Origin: an uncultured Candidatus Actinomarina sp.
GTDB taxonomy: Bacteria > Actinomycetota > Acidimicrobiia > Actinomarinales > Actinomarinaceae
NCBI GenBank assembly: GCA_902576605.1
Contig: CACGVI010000006.1
Span: 1 to 54,246, forward strand
DNA: 54,246 nucleotides
Direction of reading: 5' to 3'
A model generated the notes under the pieces. It had not been told where the DNA came from. It was given only the letters and a program-made list of their open reading frames with translations, and did not search any database. This document shows, piece after piece, positions 24,547-39,452 of this stretch. Both the position numbers and the translations under genes were made by a program. Within the stretch, counting starts at the first letter, position 1, and every line of letters begins with the position of its first letter.

Positions 24547-25128
24547 TTGAAAGTTGGGATACTTTCATTCCAAGGTAGTTTTCTTGACCATTCAAAAAGT
24601 ATTCATGAACTTGGTTATGAATCATTATTAATCAAACAATCTAAAGATTTAACGTCTGTGGATGCTTTAATTCTCCCTGGTGGTGAATCTACAGCAATGA
24701 AAAAGATTAATCAATTTAGTAATATATTAACTGATGTAGATCAACTTATTAAGGATGGTATACCTACTTTAACCACTTGTGCTGGAACAATACTTTTAGC
24801 AAAAGAAGTTATTGATGGTGAAGTAACCATTCCAAACATTGATATTGAAGTTACAAGAAATGCATATGGTAGACAGACAGAATCATTTGAAGGAAGTGTA
24901 AAGTTTTTTGAAAACGAAGATATTTATTGTTTTATAAGAGCACCAAAAATCTCAAAAATATTGTCTGATACAGTAAATGTGATTGCTCAACATAATGATG
25001 AGATAGTTGGAGTTGCTCAAAAAAATGTTGTTTCATTAACATTTCATCCCGAACTGAATAATGACGAATATTATTTAAATTGGTTAAACGATTTTATTAA
25101 AGAAGGTCAAAATGTCCGGTCATTCTAA
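24547..25128 (+). CDS. pdxT: Pyridoxal 5'-phosphate synthase glutaminase subunit PdxT
   Basis: LPGGESTAMKK, TTCAGTILLA, TFHPELNNDEYY; TTG start. Confidence 0.95.
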   Translation: MKVGILSFQGSFLDHSKSIHELGYESLLIKQSKDLTSVDALILPGGESTAMKKINQFSNILTDVDQLIKDGIPTLTTCAGTILLAKEVIDGEVTIPNIDIEVTRNAYGRQTESFEGSVKFFENEDIYCFIRAPKISKILSDTVNVIAQHNDEIVGVAQKNVVSLTFHPELNNDEYYLNWLNDFIKEGQNVRSF

Positions 25129-25855
25129 ATGGTCTACTATCAAAAGAAAAAAAGGTGCAAATGATGCAAAAAGAGGTAAATTATTTGCAAAGTTAATTAA
25201 AGGAATAGAAGTAGCTGCAAAAAACGGTGGTACTGATCCATCAGCAAATGCATCTCTATATCAAGCAATTTCAAAAGCGAAATCCAGTTCCGTTCCTAAT
25301 GACAATATTGAACGAGCTTTAAAAAGGATTGACGGAAATGCTGATACTGGAGAAATATTTGAACTAACGTATGAAGGTTATGGACCATTTGGAGTAGCTA
25401 TTTTAATTAACTGTCTAACTGATAATAAAAATAGAACATCCTCTGATGTTAGAGCTGCTTTAACTAAAAACAACGGTTCAATGGGCAATCCTGGTAGTGT
25501 TAATTATTTATTTGAAAGAAAGGCTATATTTCAATTCGACACATTCGATGATGAACTTATTGAAATGGGTATAAACAACAATTGTTTAGAAATTCAAGAA
25601 GATAAAAATTCATTAACATTCGAATACGATCCTAAGGATTTTAAGTTAATTTATGAACTTTTCAACTCAAGCCCTTACACACCATCCAATGCTGAAATAG
25701 CATATATACCTTCTTCATCAATAAATTTAAAAGCTGATCAATTCACTAAAGTAACCAAATTGATTGAGTCTCTAGAAGAACTTGACGATGTTCAAGACGT
25801 TTACGCAAATTTTGATATTGAAGAAAAAGAACTAGAGTCATTACTTTCTGAATAA
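25112..25855 (+). CDS. yebC: YebC/PmpR family protein
   Basis: MSGHSKWSTIKRKKGANDAKRGKLFAKLIKGIEVAAKNGG. Confidence 0.97.
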   Translation: MSGHSKWSTIKRKKGANDAKRGKLFAKLIKGIEVAAKNGGTDPSANASLYQAISKAKSSSVPNDNIERALKRIDGNADTGEIFELTYEGYGPFGVAILINCLTDNKNRTSSDVRAALTKNNGSMGNPGSVNYLFERKAIFQFDTFDDELIEMGINNNCLEIQEDKNSLTFEYDPKDFKLIYELFNSSPYTPSNAEIAYIPSSSINLKADQFTKVTKLIESLEELDDVQDVYANFDIEEKELESLLSE

Positions 25856-25874: not shown

Positions 25875-26228
25875 ATGGTTAATAAAGCAAAAAAACAGGG
25901 AACTACGTACGAAACAAATATAGTAAATAGATTAAATAAAAATAATAAATTTAAATCACAACGATTTGCTGAAGGTGGATCGAAAGATTTAGGAGATGTC
26001 CAACTTTTCGTTGATGATGAAGAATATTTTATAGAAGCTAAATCCCGACAAAATTTAAACATTCATCAATCATTAGATAAAGCAATAGAAAAATCAGGAA
26101 GTGATAATACTGTTTTATTTTGGAAAAAGTTAAAAAAGAGAGATGGTAATTCTAGAAGATCATCAGACGGTATGCCAGAAGTTGTATCAATGTCATATGA
26201 TTTATTTATTAAATTATTAAATAAATAA
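25875..26228 (+). CDS. PD-(D/E)XK nuclease, candidate Hjc/actinophage-type Holliday junction resolvase
   Basis: GTTYETNIVNRL (E13)...RFAEGGSKDLGDV (D41)...EYFIEAKSRQ (E54, K56); lies between yebC and queA. Confidence 0.75.
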   Translation: MVNKAKKQGTTYETNIVNRLNKNNKFKSQRFAEGGSKDLGDVQLFVDDEEYFIEAKSRQNLNIHQSLDKAIEKSGSDNTVLFWKKLKKRDGNSRRSSDGMPEVVSMSYDLFIKLLNK

Positions 26229-27223
26229 TGCCTTTTGAGTCAAAGGTTTATAATTACAATCTTCCTAAAGAGTCTATAAACCAAACTCCATATACAGATC
26301 CAAATTTATCTAAATTATTAATAGCTGATACAAAACAAATTATTGAATTTAAAGATATAAGCTCAATAATAAAGAAGCCATCATTATTCATTCTGAACAA
26401 ATCTCAAGTACAAAGTGTAAGAGTTGTAAGTAAAAAATCTACTGGAGGAAAGATAGAAGTATTTGTTTTAGACGTTCAATCTACTTATATTGCTACATGT
26501 TTAATTAAATCCTCTGATAAAAAAGTCCTTAATAAAAAATATAAACTTCAAAATTTTAACTTCGAAATTATAAGAATCTTAAATGATACATATGAGATTA
26601 AATTTAATATTCCAGTGACAGAAATAATTAAAAGTTATGGACAAATTCCGTTGCCCCCATACATAAAAGATGATTCTTCTAAGTATGAATATTACAACAA
26701 CCAATTTGCTGAAGGTGGGTTTTCTGTTGCATCTCCAACGGCAGGTTTACATTTTTCTAATCAACAAATACATAAACTTACAAAAGAAGGACACAAATTT
26801 ATTTTTATCAATTTAGATGTGAATATAGATACTTTTAAACCTATAACCGAAAGATATTTAGAAGATCACAAAATACATAAAGAAAATTATCAAATCAGTA
26901 AAAATGATTTTGAAATAATTTTAGAAGCTAAAAGTTCAAATACAGATATTTATTGTATTGGAACAACATCATTAAGAGCTATAGAATCTGCTTATGTAAC
27001 TGGAGAGCTTTCAAGTTCTACAGATTATTTTATATATCCAGATACAAAAATTAACATCCCTAATTATTTGATAACTAATTTTCATGCACCTAATAGTTCA
27101 CTACTTTCAATAGTGGATTGTATATACGGGTCACAATGGAAAGATTTATATAATTTTGCTATTGATTCTGAATTAAAATTTTTAAGTTTTGGTGATGCAG
27201 TACTATTTAATGTAAATGAATAA
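26228..27223 (+). CDS. queA: S-adenosylmethionine:tRNA ribosyltransferase-isomerase
   Basis: YNLPKESINQTP, GGFSVASPTAGLHFS, TSLRAIESA, TNFHAPNSSLLSIVDC. Confidence 0.95.
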   Translation: MPFESKVYNYNLPKESINQTPYTDPNLSKLLIADTKQIIEFKDISSIIKKPSLFILNKSQVQSVRVVSKKSTGGKIEVFVLDVQSTYIATCLIKSSDKKVLNKKYKLQNFNFEIIRILNDTYEIKFNIPVTEIIKSYGQIPLPPYIKDDSSKYEYYNNQFAEGGFSVASPTAGLHFSNQQIHKLTKEGHKFIFINLDVNIDTFKPITERYLEDHKIHKENYQISKNDFEIILEAKSSNTDIYCIGTTSLRAIESAYVTGELSSSTDYFIYPDTKINIPNYLITNFHAPNSSLLSIVDCIYGSQWKDLYNFAIDSELKFLSFGDAVLFNVNE

Positions 27224-28301
27224 GATTAACTTAAAAACAATCGGTACAGATGGTAAAGCTAGAGTTAATGATGTAATAATTAATGGTAAATCTCTTCAAA
27301 CTCCTACATTCATGCCAGTTGCAACAAGAGGAGCAATTAAATCTCTCCCTCTTAATTATTTAGAAAAAACTGATGTTCTTTTAGCTAATACCTACCACCT
27401 CTATTTAAGGCCTGGGCTTGATGTAATTAAAGAGTTTGAAGGACTACATAATTTTATTGGTTGGGATAAATTAATACTGACTGATTCTGGTGGTTTCCAG
27501 GGATGGTCAATTCCAAATAAGTTAAATGAAGATGGTATAGAGTTTAAAAATATTTATGATGGATCTAAATTTTTTATGGATCCAATTTTATCAATGGATA
27601 TACAAAATACTTTAAATAGTGATATCGCAATGATTCTAGATTCCTTAGTGGATATAGATAAAGATTATAACAATCAGCTTGAATCTATAAATACAACAAA
27701 AAAATGGGCTGAAATTGCTCGTGAATATCATTCGAATAACAATCAATCATTATTTGGAATTGTGCAGGGAGGTAAGTTTCTTGAATTGAGAGAAAAATCA
27801 TCTATCGATATGGTTTCATTAAATTTTGATGGTTACGCAATAGGTGGACTAGCAATTGGTGAAACTCCGGAGGAGAGAAAAAGCATAGTAGATTTTACTG
27901 TAGATTTTCTTCCAAAAGATAAATTAAGGTATGTAATGGGCTTAGGTGATATTGAAGGAATGCTTAATCTAATAGATTCAGGGATAGATATGTTTGATTG
28001 CGTATGGCCTGCTCGTTTAGCACGACACGGAAAAATAATTAATAAAGGTAAATTCTTTAATCTGAAAAATAGTCAATATAAAAACGACACAGAACCTATG
28101 GTTTTAGACTGTGATTGTTTAGTCTGTGAAAAATATTCAAAAGCATATTTAAGACATTTACTTATAAATGAATCTACTTCAGCATGGCTATATTTGACTT
28201 TACATAATATATCTCAGACTGAAAATATACTTTCCGAAGTTAGAAAAAGTATATTAAACTCAGAATTTGAAAACTATAAAGAAAGTATCATAAATGGATG
28301 A
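27216..28301 (+). CDS. tgt: tRNA-guanine transglycosylase
   Basis: TPTFMPVATRGAIKSL, TDSGGFQ, GIVQGG, YAIGGLAIGE, YVMGLGD, FDCV, C-D-C-x2-C zinc motif. Confidence 0.95.
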   Translation: MNKINLKTIGTDGKARVNDVIINGKSLQTPTFMPVATRGAIKSLPLNYLEKTDVLLANTYHLYLRPGLDVIKEFEGLHNFIGWDKLILTDSGGFQGWSIPNKLNEDGIEFKNIYDGSKFFMDPILSMDIQNTLNSDIAMILDSLVDIDKDYNNQLESINTTKKWAEIAREYHSNNNQSLFGIVQGGKFLELREKSSIDMVSLNFDGYAIGGLAIGETPEERKSIVDFTVDFLPKDKLRYVMGLGDIEGMLNLIDSGIDMFDCVWPARLARHGKIINKGKFFNLKNSQYKNDTEPMVLDCDCLVCEKYSKAYLRHLLINESTSAWLYLTLHNISQTENILSEVRKSILNSEFENYKESIING

Positions 28302-28542
28302 TTTAATTGCCCTTTTACCGTTAGTAACGGTTTTCTTATTGTTTTATTTAATCCTTTACATACCTCAAAGAAGACGCCAAAAAAAACATAAATCTTATAT
28401 TGAAGCATTAAAAATTGGCGATGATGTTGTCACTGATTCTGGTATATACGGTAGAGTTACCAATATAAAAGAAGAGAGCATAACGCTTGTCCTTAAAAAA
28501 GGTGAAATTGAAATATTAAAGAGCAAAATACTTCATAAATAA
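28294..28542 (+). CDS. yajC: Preprotein translocase subunit YajC
   Basis: Single TM then PQRRRQKKHKSYIEALKIGDDVVTDSGIYGRVTNI. Confidence 0.92.
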   Translation: MDDLIALLPLVTVFLLFYLILYIPQRRRQKKHKSYIEALKIGDDVVTDSGIYGRVTNIKEESITLVLKKGEIEILKSKILHK

Positions 28543-28545
28543 ATC

Positions 28546-29991
28546 ATGAAACGAATCATAAAACTTTTATTTTTACCATTACTTTCTGCAGGTTTGTTAA
28601 CTTATGTATTCATGAATTCAATACAACCTAAACTAGGCCTTGATCTCCAGGGTGGTATATCAGTTATTCTGACAGCTGAAGAAGATACTGAACCAGAACT
28701 AATTGAACAAGCTGTTGAAATTATGAGAACAAGAATTGCAGCATTTGGAGAAGTGCAAGAACCTGAAATATCAATAAGTGGAGAAAACTCTGTATTAGTT
28801 CAACTACCAGGTTTAACTGACCAGGAAAAAGCATTAGAAGCAGTAGGGACAACGGGTTTATTAACATTTCGGCCAGTTATTAGTTCTTCAATGCAATCTG
28901 GTTATTCGCCAGCTTTAACTATTACTGAAAATCCTGATGATCCAGAAAATCCTATAATTACAGCAGTTCCCGGTGTAAATGAATTAACAGGATTGTCTAT
29001 AAATGATGACCCTTCAACTACTTCTTATTTATTATCAATCAGAGATGGATTCCCAGTTATTTATGAATTAGGCCCAGCTGAGTTAACAGGTAATGATATT
29101 GACGATGCTTTAGCTGTGTATCCGCAAAACGAATGGGTTGTACAATTAAATTTTAAGGATGAATCTGCTGATAAGTTTACTGAGTTAACAAAAGTTCTAG
29201 CATCTAATATTGGAGACCAACGTAAATTAGCAATAGTTTTAGATGAGGAAGTAATTTCTGCTCCTCAAGTAGCCTTTGATGTTAATCCAGATATTGGTAT
29301 TACAGGAGGAACTGCATCTATTTCTATGGGTAATGTTGATCAAGGTGAATCTGCAAATAACCTTGCAGTTATATTACGCTATGGTGCTTTGCCAGTTTCA
29401 TTTGAAAGATCTTCAATTCAAAAAGTATCAGCTACTTTAGGTGAAAATACACTTAATTTAGGTCTACAAGCTGGATTAGTAGGTCTTATTATCGTAAGCA
29501 TATTTTTATTACTTTATTACCGTCTTTCTGGCTTAATAGCGATTGTTGGCTTAGCATCTTTTGGTGCTCTATTTTACTCAGTTATTTCACTTCTTGGTGA
29601 ATGGCAAGGATACACGTTAACTCTTGCTGGAATAGCGGGTGTTATTGTATCAATTGGACTTACAGCTGACTCATATATAGTGATATTTGAAAAACTTAAA
29701 GATGAATTAAAAATTGGACGTTCTTTCAATTTTGCTACTGAAAAAGCAGTTAAAGAAGCTTGGAAAACAATATTAGTAGCTGACTTTGTTTCAATCATTG
29801 CAGCTATCATTCTTTACTTACTAGCTGTAGGGCCTATTAGAGGTTTTGCTTTAACTCTAGGATTAGCAACAGTATTTGATTTGTTTTATACAAGAATGTT
29901 CATATCAACTGCAGTGCCTGTTGTTGGTAATATGACTGATAATCCAAGATTTTATTTTCCTTTGAATAGAAAGGATATTGAGAATGTTTAA
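28546..29991 (+). CDS. secD: Protein translocase subunit SecD
   Basis: LGLDLQGGISVILTAEE, VQLPGL, SIGLTADSYIVIFEKLKDEL. Confidence 0.96.
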   Translation: MKRIIKLLFLPLLSAGLLTYVFMNSIQPKLGLDLQGGISVILTAEEDTEPELIEQAVEIMRTRIAAFGEVQEPEISISGENSVLVQLPGLTDQEKALEAVGTTGLLTFRPVISSSMQSGYSPALTITENPDDPENPIITAVPGVNELTGLSINDDPSTTSYLLSIRDGFPVIYELGPAELTGNDIDDALAVYPQNEWVVQLNFKDESADKFTELTKVLASNIGDQRKLAIVLDEEVISAPQVAFDVNPDIGITGGTASISMGNVDQGESANNLAVILRYGALPVSFERSSIQKVSATLGENTLNLGLQAGLVGLIIVSIFLLLYYRLSGLIAIVGLASFGALFYSVISLLGEWQGYTLTLAGIAGVIVSIGLTADSYIVIFEKLKDELKIGRSFNFATEKAVKEAWKTILVADFVSIIAAIILYLLAVGPIRGFALTLGLATVFDLFYTRMFISTAVPVVGNMTDNPRFYFPLNRKDIENV

Positions 29992-30892
29992 AAGATTATT
30001 TCTTGGTACTACACAAATTGACTTTAAAGATATAGGTCCAAGATTTTATAAAATATTCGTCGTTGAAATGTTAATATTTGGAGCAATTCTAATAGCTTCT
30101 CTTTTTGGTTTCTTGTCATTAAATTTATCTGTTGATTTTACTGGTGGAACAACATATCAACTAGATACTGAATATTCTGATAATGATATTGCAGATGTTT
30201 TAGACAACTCTATCTTAGAAGTTTCTCGTTATCAAACATTTGAAAACTCTAATACATTAATTTTTAGAGCTGTAGAGTCCACACAAGATAATGAAACAGA
30301 ATTTTTAAATTATCTAGGTAATAAATTTGATGTACCAACTGGAGAAATAGATTTTCAAAGAGTTGGCCCAACTTTTGGTCAAGATATCACTGAGAAAGGT
30401 ATTAGGGCATTAGTTATATTCCTTACAATAATCGCTTTACTTATTTCGCTAAGATATGAATACAGGTATTCCTTTATTGCTCTAGTTGCGTTACTACATG
30501 ACTTATTGTTAACTTTCTCAATTTATATTCTTATAGGTCTTGAAATTACGCCTTCAACAGTAATAGCACTTTTAACTATTCTTGGTTATTCCCTCTATGA
30601 CACAGTTATATTATTTGATAAATTAAGTGACTCGCAAAAAGTATTTAAGTTAAATAGTTTAAATAAAGATGTACTAAACAAAACATTTAATGAAGTATTG
30701 ATGAGAAGTATTAACACATCATTAACATCTGCTATACCTATAATTTCAATTATTGTCATTGGTAATTATTTAGGAATTGAAGGCAATCTTGCTGATTTCG
30801 CAATACCATTGCTAATTGGTATAGTTTCCGGTACGTATAGTTCTATATTTGTTACTGTTCCATTTTTATCAAAAATTATTAAAACCAAATAA
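29978..30892 (+). CDS. secF: Protein translocase subunit SecF
   Basis: LSVDFTGGTTYQL, VGPTFGQDITEKG, LLTILGYSLYDTVILFDKL, MRSINTSLTS. Confidence 0.95.
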   Translation: MRMFKRLFLGTTQIDFKDIGPRFYKIFVVEMLIFGAILIASLFGFLSLNLSVDFTGGTTYQLDTEYSDNDIADVLDNSILEVSRYQTFENSNTLIFRAVESTQDNETEFLNYLGNKFDVPTGEIDFQRVGPTFGQDITEKGIRALVIFLTIIALLISLRYEYRYSFIALVALLHDLLLTFSIYILIGLEITPSTVIALLTILGYSLYDTVILFDKLSDSQKVFKLNSLNKDVLNKTFNEVLMRSINTSLTSAIPIISIIVIGNYLGIEGNLADFAIPLLIGIVSGTYSSIFVTVPFLSKIIKTK

Positions 30893-39074: not shown

Positions 39075-39452
39075 TTGAACAATATTTTATCAATCGATTT
39101 TGGTGAAAGGTACCTAGGCATAGCTGTAAGAACTGAAAAAACTATTATTCCAATAGCTATAAATGTTATTGATTCAAAAAAAGATGAACCAATATCTGCG
39201 GTAATGAAGTATGTAAATGAGTATCAGATTCAATTGATTGTTGTTGGATATCCTATAGGGTTAAATAGTTCCGAAAATCGTATGACGAACTTAGTTGATC
39301 AGTTTATTAAAGAGTTAGATACATTAAATTTAGAGGTTCATAAAATAGACGAAAGATTGTCTTCAAAACTTTTTAATAATAATAAAAGTGAAAGAATCGA
39401 TGATCTTTCAGCATTGGAAATATTGGAAAGCTATTTGTCTCAAAGTGAATAA
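39075..39452 (+). CDS. ruvX: RuvX/YqgF family (RNase H-fold) protein
   Basis: ILSIDFGERYLGIAV, LIVVGYPIGLN, DERLSSKL; downstream of alaS. TTG start. Confidence 0.9.
   Translation: MNNILSIDFGERYLGIAVRTEKTIIPIAINVIDSKKDEPISAVMKYVNEYQIQLIVVGYPIGLNSSENRMTNLVDQFIKELDTLNLEVHKIDERLSSKLFNNNKSERIDDLSALEILESYLSQSE

Follow-up and report, generated by a model that had tools for sequence, protein, structure and literature searches.

A virus-type, Hjc-like gene in the vacated ruvCAB slot of Actinomarinales and its predicted role as a Holliday junction resolvase

Fewer than 2% of the bacteria that have been sequenced lack RuvA and RuvB, and most of these are parasites (PMC3403352); in a survey of 117 species, just two genomes with RecA were without them (PMC1193525). 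RecU is known to have displaced RuvC, and it has been suggested that resolvases encoded by prophages take on this role (PMC1193525). For resolvases of the archaeal Hjc type, the defining E...D...ExK motif has been described (PMC8805305), mutants of Pyrococcus furiosus Hjc in which the D, E or K is changed were reported to be inactive (cited in PMC8805305), and junction cleavage by Hjc_15-6 of phage Tth15-6 was demonstrated experimentally (PMC8805305). Here we analyzed a stretch of 54,246 nucleotides from an uncultured Candidatus Actinomarina sp. (contig CACGVI010000006.1 of assembly GCA_902576605.1; hereafter the window), which carries between yebC and queA a gene of 354 bases that we call X. 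We consider it likely that X, a predicted virus-type Hjc-like resolvase, has displaced the whole ruvCAB cassette in situ, probably acting together with RecG.

None of the 42 Actinomarinales genomes surveyed was matched by the profiles of RuvC (PF02075), RuvA (PF01330) and the C-terminal domain of RuvB (PF05491), and the control genomes were positive. All 42 were assembled from single cells or metagenomes, and the one that contains the window is 63% complete. The general AAA domain RuvB_N gave weak matches only; these were rejected as possible RuvB, since those examined turned out to be DnaX, ClpX, FtsH and DnaA. RecA is kept in 39 of the 42 genomes and RecG is kept as well, at full length in most. 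Among other genomes of the class, RuvC was detected in 152 of 156 sampled, and in 127 of the 129 that are at least 90% complete; the four lacking a match are G081, G134, G184 and G191. In three sister genomes of the class examined in full (L048, L050 and L052), the same slot reads yebC-ruvC-ruvA-ruvB-queA, and for L048 the identities of ruvC, ruvA and ruvB were confirmed by NCBIfam equivalogs. At further loci of the class the pdxS-pdxT-yebC...queA-tgt frame recurs, in some cases with a gap of ruvCAB size and in others with extra genes. Since the sister slot is filled by ruvC-ruvA-ruvB, one gene of 354 bases stands in Actinomarinales where three genes (about 2 kb) stand in their relatives. A sequence-only reading of this DNA had described a 117-residue open reading frame (ORF) with PD-(D/E)XK motifs between yebC and queA-tgt-yajC-secD-secF, had placed it in the ruvC-ruvA-ruvB slot, and had proposed that RuvC and possibly RuvAB were replaced in situ. 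Position and motifs are as it described, the sister genomes show the slot directly, and a search for intact ruvABC elsewhere came back empty in all 42 genomes, so that both marks of a genomic replacement, missing ruvA, ruvB and ruvC and X in their place, are present.

Orthologs of X were found in 37 of the 42 Actinomarinales genomes (74-100% identity), including all eight that are at least 90% complete, and up to 100% identity was seen in named Candidatus Actinomarina relatives represented by single-cell genomes and metagenome-assembled genomes (MAGs) from several projects. The order pdxT-yebC-X-queA-tgt was present in 30 of 30 loci examined. The median ratio of nonsynonymous to synonymous polymorphism (pN/pS) of X is 0.19 in frame against 1.05 and 2.65 in two shifted frames, the residues E13, D41, E54 and K56 are invariant in 15 diverse orthologs, and X is more conserved than the adjoining yebC and queA (for example, 79% against 65% and 46%). 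Because of its orthologs, its pN/pS and its invariant residues, X is a genuine gene under purifying selection and not a chance ORF. The five genomes without X are partial assemblies that also lack yebC, as does one genome with a truncated X; the locus is therefore probably just unassembled there. The yebC check on the X-less genomes included no positive genome in the same run, and the same query matches its orthologs elsewhere. In MAG UBA1281, the yebC adjoining X is interrupted by about 400 bases (L028:1874-2924), probably an assembly error.

The product of X carries the motifs G9-T-T-Y-E13, R30-F-A-E-G-G-S-K-D-L-G-D41 and F-I-E54-A-K56, and its E13, D41, E54 and K56 align with E12, D42, E55 and K57 of Sulfolobus solfataricus Hjc, which gives the E...D...ExK constellation. 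Residues 1-116 are matched at E 1.4e-10 by PHROG 244, a profile of Holliday junction resolvases from phages, which also matches other X orthologs at E 1.7e-11 and 4.5e-10. Neither PF01870 (Hjc) nor RusA (PF05866) matches X up to E 10, and RuvC (PF02075) does not match it; in the wider set of relatives, PF01870 does match two of 19 members, with a best E of 0.0019. Pfam also gives a weak match to PDDEXK_15, described as a putative phage endonuclease whose specificity is not stated. When a profile of Actinomarina sequences only was compared with the PDB, the top four matches were all Hjc (E 0.045-0.33), and a wider family profile including phage relatives reached Hjc 1hh1 at E 4.3e-7, matching also Archaeoglobus fulgidus Hjc and the phage Tth15-6 resolvase (E 0.0039). 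The AlphaFold model of X from the wider alignment (predicted local distance difference test score, pLDDT, 83.6) shows the alpha-beta-beta-beta-alpha-beta nuclease core of Hjc-type resolvases, and the top 20 Foldseek matches were all Hjc or Hje (best E 1.9e-4). A first model built from the orthologs alone (pLDDT 63.5) gave meaningless Foldseek matches to protein kinases, which was cured by adding distant viral relatives. The resemblance to archaeal Hjc noted from the sequence alone is thus borne out by fold and profile, with resolvases rather than an unrelated restriction or repair family among the matches; the Pfam profile PF01870 itself is the part of that comparison that failed. Holliday junction cleavage is the proposed activity of X, predicted from sequence and model. 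Since X has no RusA Pfam match and carries PD-(D/E)XK motifs, the label 'RusA-like' attached to PHROG 244 seems misleading. The PHROG 244 profile also matches the control genomes of Haloferax volcanii and Sulfolobus acidocaldarius, presumably through Hjc, and at E 2.4e-19 a different small PD-(D/E)XK phage-like protein with a KRQERLNIW motif in another actinobacterium (L118:1501-1845, G239).

A scan for viral relatives with the X ortholog alignment found no match owing to its peptide patterns; a degenerate DNA pattern for RxA(E/Q)GGSxDxGD gave 15 matches in IMG/VR and found close viral relatives (L144, also among the 15, is probably a chance match); and an alignment-based scan of IMG/VR yielded 99 viral stretches with X relatives, 80 of which were kept. 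The closest relatives of X are in these viral contigs, with 34-52% identity over the full length. A large subfamily of IMG/VR contigs (L138-L143, L145-L230), many with a GC content of 34-41%, shares with X the signature KxQGT...RxAEGGSxDxGD...E(A/G/C)KxRxxLN and is called AEGGS-type here. This group looks absent from cultured phages, as its L139 member found no match among 50,697 phage records. In the contigs inspected, its genes lie near a phage exonuclease, an Erf-like annealing protein and a terminase (L205, L220), near an exonuclease and a DnaB helicase (L139), or near a replication initiation protein (L154). A PHROG 244-type resolvase (L106:3001-3396) directly precedes a phage recA (TIGR02012 over cut-off) on a viral contig of 143 kb (IMGVR_UViG_3300050821_009780). 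Classical actinophage resolvases are only about 19-28% identical to X (a value for relatives in viral contigs) and a classical actinophage was rejected as direct donor. In the tree, Actinomarina X forms one clade (100/100) that joins the AEGGS-type viral subfamily (100/99), apart from PHROG 244 phages. The likeness to small actinophage resolvases proposed from the sequence alone therefore stands as PHROG 244 homology, with the correction that the closest relatives are a distinct subfamily in uncultured viral contigs.

Outside Actinomarinales, the X family gave one weak match in the class, PHROG 244 gave 10 sporadic, mostly partial matches in 396 genomes from the rest of the phylum, and tblastn of X against plasmids gave none. 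We infer a viral origin of X, strongly but short of proof, mainly because members of the family are widespread in viruses and very rare among the other cells of the class and the phylum. The claim of the sequence-only reading that X is virus-derived is supported by this distribution, not by the tree, which does not show Actinomarina to be nested within viruses. The opposite course, in which the gene passed from Actinomarina-like hosts to viruses and the bacterial copy is older, draws on the same lack of tree order, but is very unlikely in view of the deep diversity of the family in viruses and of the ruvCAB cassette that held the slot in relatives. A direct acquisition from an archaeal Hjc gene is hardly to be expected either: fold and active site of X are Hjc-like, and in a first tree built without the close viral relatives Actinomarina was joined by long branches to a single partial Hjc, but that tree was set aside, PF01870 misses X where PHROG 244 finds it at 1e-10, dozens of viral proteins match X over the full length, and Actinomarina groups with these.

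With regard to function, X might be a PD-(D/E)XK nuclease with another job, such as a flap or branched-DNA endonuclease or a repair nuclease, with junctions left to RuvX/YqgF, or to RecG and topoisomerases without any resolvase. Nucleases of this superfamily are functionally diverse, the PDDEXK_15 match leaves specificity unstated, and RuvX is encoded in the window; against this, all top structural and profile matches are junction resolvases and none are restriction or repair nucleases, RuvX co-occurs with RuvC or RecU in most bacteria and is hence no simple substitute (PMC1193525), and X occupies the vacated ruvCAB slot, so that we regard this possibility as unlikely. That the absence of ruvABC is an artifact of incomplete assemblies, or of profiles that lose sensitivity when genomes are AT-rich, is close to refuted: the nature and completeness of the assemblies invite the suspicion, but ruvABC is missing also from the eight genomes of at least 90% completeness, whereas 127 of the 129 relatives that are as complete have RuvC, the syntenic slot itself is assembled and contains X, and RecA and RecG were detected by the same method. 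Several observations weigh against displacement by a virus-derived resolvase nonetheless. The most complete Actinomarinales genome surveyed reaches 94% and none is closed; the Hjc matches of the Actinomarina-only profile are individually weak and the Foldseek TM-scores (template modeling) are modest, at about 0.39-0.50; X is not the sole candidate resolvase, given RuvX (no further family with a resolvase name was seen in the window); and the deep order of the tree leaves the direction of transfer unproven, with viral rows forming one clade in 13% of bootstraps and viral monophyly not rejected (approximately unbiased (AU) test, p 0.51).

We think it probable that the whole order Actinomarinales, whose members are abundant and free-living in the sea, completes homologous recombination without RuvABC and relies on a virus-derived resolvase of Hjc type that is not coupled to a dedicated branch-migration motor. 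An ancestor of the order would have taken X from a virus, X would have come to occupy the ruvCAB slot, and RuvC and the RuvAB motor would have been lost in that lineage. RecA would make joint molecules and RecG would drive branch migration in place of RuvAB. A homodimer of X may then bind Mg2+ in each subunit through D41 and E54 (with E13), and each subunit would cleave a single strand with the help of K56, the two cuts falling on opposite junction arms, after which ligase would seal the cut strands; X would act without coupling to a branch-migration motor, unlike RuvC. RuvX/YqgF could serve as co-resolvase beside X. Population genomics points to strong homologous recombination in Actinomarinales (PMC7771536).

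Within the window, X encodes 117 amino acids from an ATG start, begins 19 bp downstream of yebC and shares one base with queA (TAATG), in the tightly packed gene run pdxS-pdxT-yebC-X-queA-tgt-yajC-secD-secF-relA (Table 1).

Table 1. Gene X, its neighbors and a possible second resolvase in the window.
Feature	Description	Position	Strand	Profile evidence
X	Hjc-like PD-(D/E)XK protein, proposed Holliday junction resolvase, predicted active site E13/D41/E54/K56	25875..26228	+	
yebC	upstream neighbor of X; flanks ruvC in sister genomes	25112..25855	+	
queA	downstream neighbor of X, 1-base overlap; flanks ruvB in sister genomes	26228..27223	+	
tgt	part of conserved order	27216..28301	+	
yajC-secD-secF	part of conserved order	28294..30892	+	
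pdxT	upstream conserved order (pdxS-pdxT-yebC)	24547..25128	+	
ruvX/yqgF	possible second resolvase	39075..39452	+	PF03652 E 3.9e-25; TIGR00250 over cut-off

A search of the open-license literature found no publication describing X or a replacement of RuvABC in Actinomarinales, and the words 'ruv' and 'resolvase' do not occur in the main genome paper on the order. A free-living, strongly recombining marine lineage has lost RuvAB, and a single viral-type gene stands in the slot of about 2 kb. Two questions thereby become directly testable: do a stand-alone resolvase and RecG suffice for recombination in bacteria, and can recombination genes of viruses assume a core function of the cell where genomes are streamlined? 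The analysis also indicates a large family of viral resolvases that apparently has no name.

Compared with archaeal Hjc (PF01870; PDB 1hh1, 1gef, 2wcw), X shares the small size, the predicted fold, E in motif I, D in motif II and E-x-K in motif III, as well as the proposed reaction, but it lies below PF01870 detection, is a bacterial chromosomal gene, and has the conserved AEGGS and RQxLN signature in common with its viral relatives and not with Hjc. The PHROG 244 actinophage proteins annotated as 'RusA-like Holliday junction resolvase' (for example, gp47 of Microbacterium phage Caron) are homologous to X over the full length and have the same catalytic residues, with E or Q at the third position; they are encoded among replication and recombination genes, and they differ from X in their lower identity, their separate clade and their being phage genes, whereas X is fixed in the chromosome. 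The AEGGS-type subfamily, for which no published name was found, is nearest in identity and signature, but it is viral and lies outside the yebC-queA slot, near exonuclease, annealing protein, helicase or terminase genes. Hjc_15-6 (PDB 7bgs, 7bnx; PMC8805305) is likewise an archaeal-type resolvase, encoded by a bacterial virus and with an E-xD-ExK motif; it is distant in sequence (E 0.0039 with the wide profile), is a phage gene, and its own cleavage has been shown whereas that of X is predicted. In Firmicutes (PMC1193525, PMC3403352), the unrelated resolvase RecU has likewise taken the place of RuvC throughout a bacterial lineage, but there RuvAB is kept and RecU is located elsewhere in the genome. 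New in Actinomarinales is that RuvA and RuvB are lost too, that the gene sits in the exact slot, that the enzyme is of Hjc type, and that it is fixed across an order of free-living bacteria.
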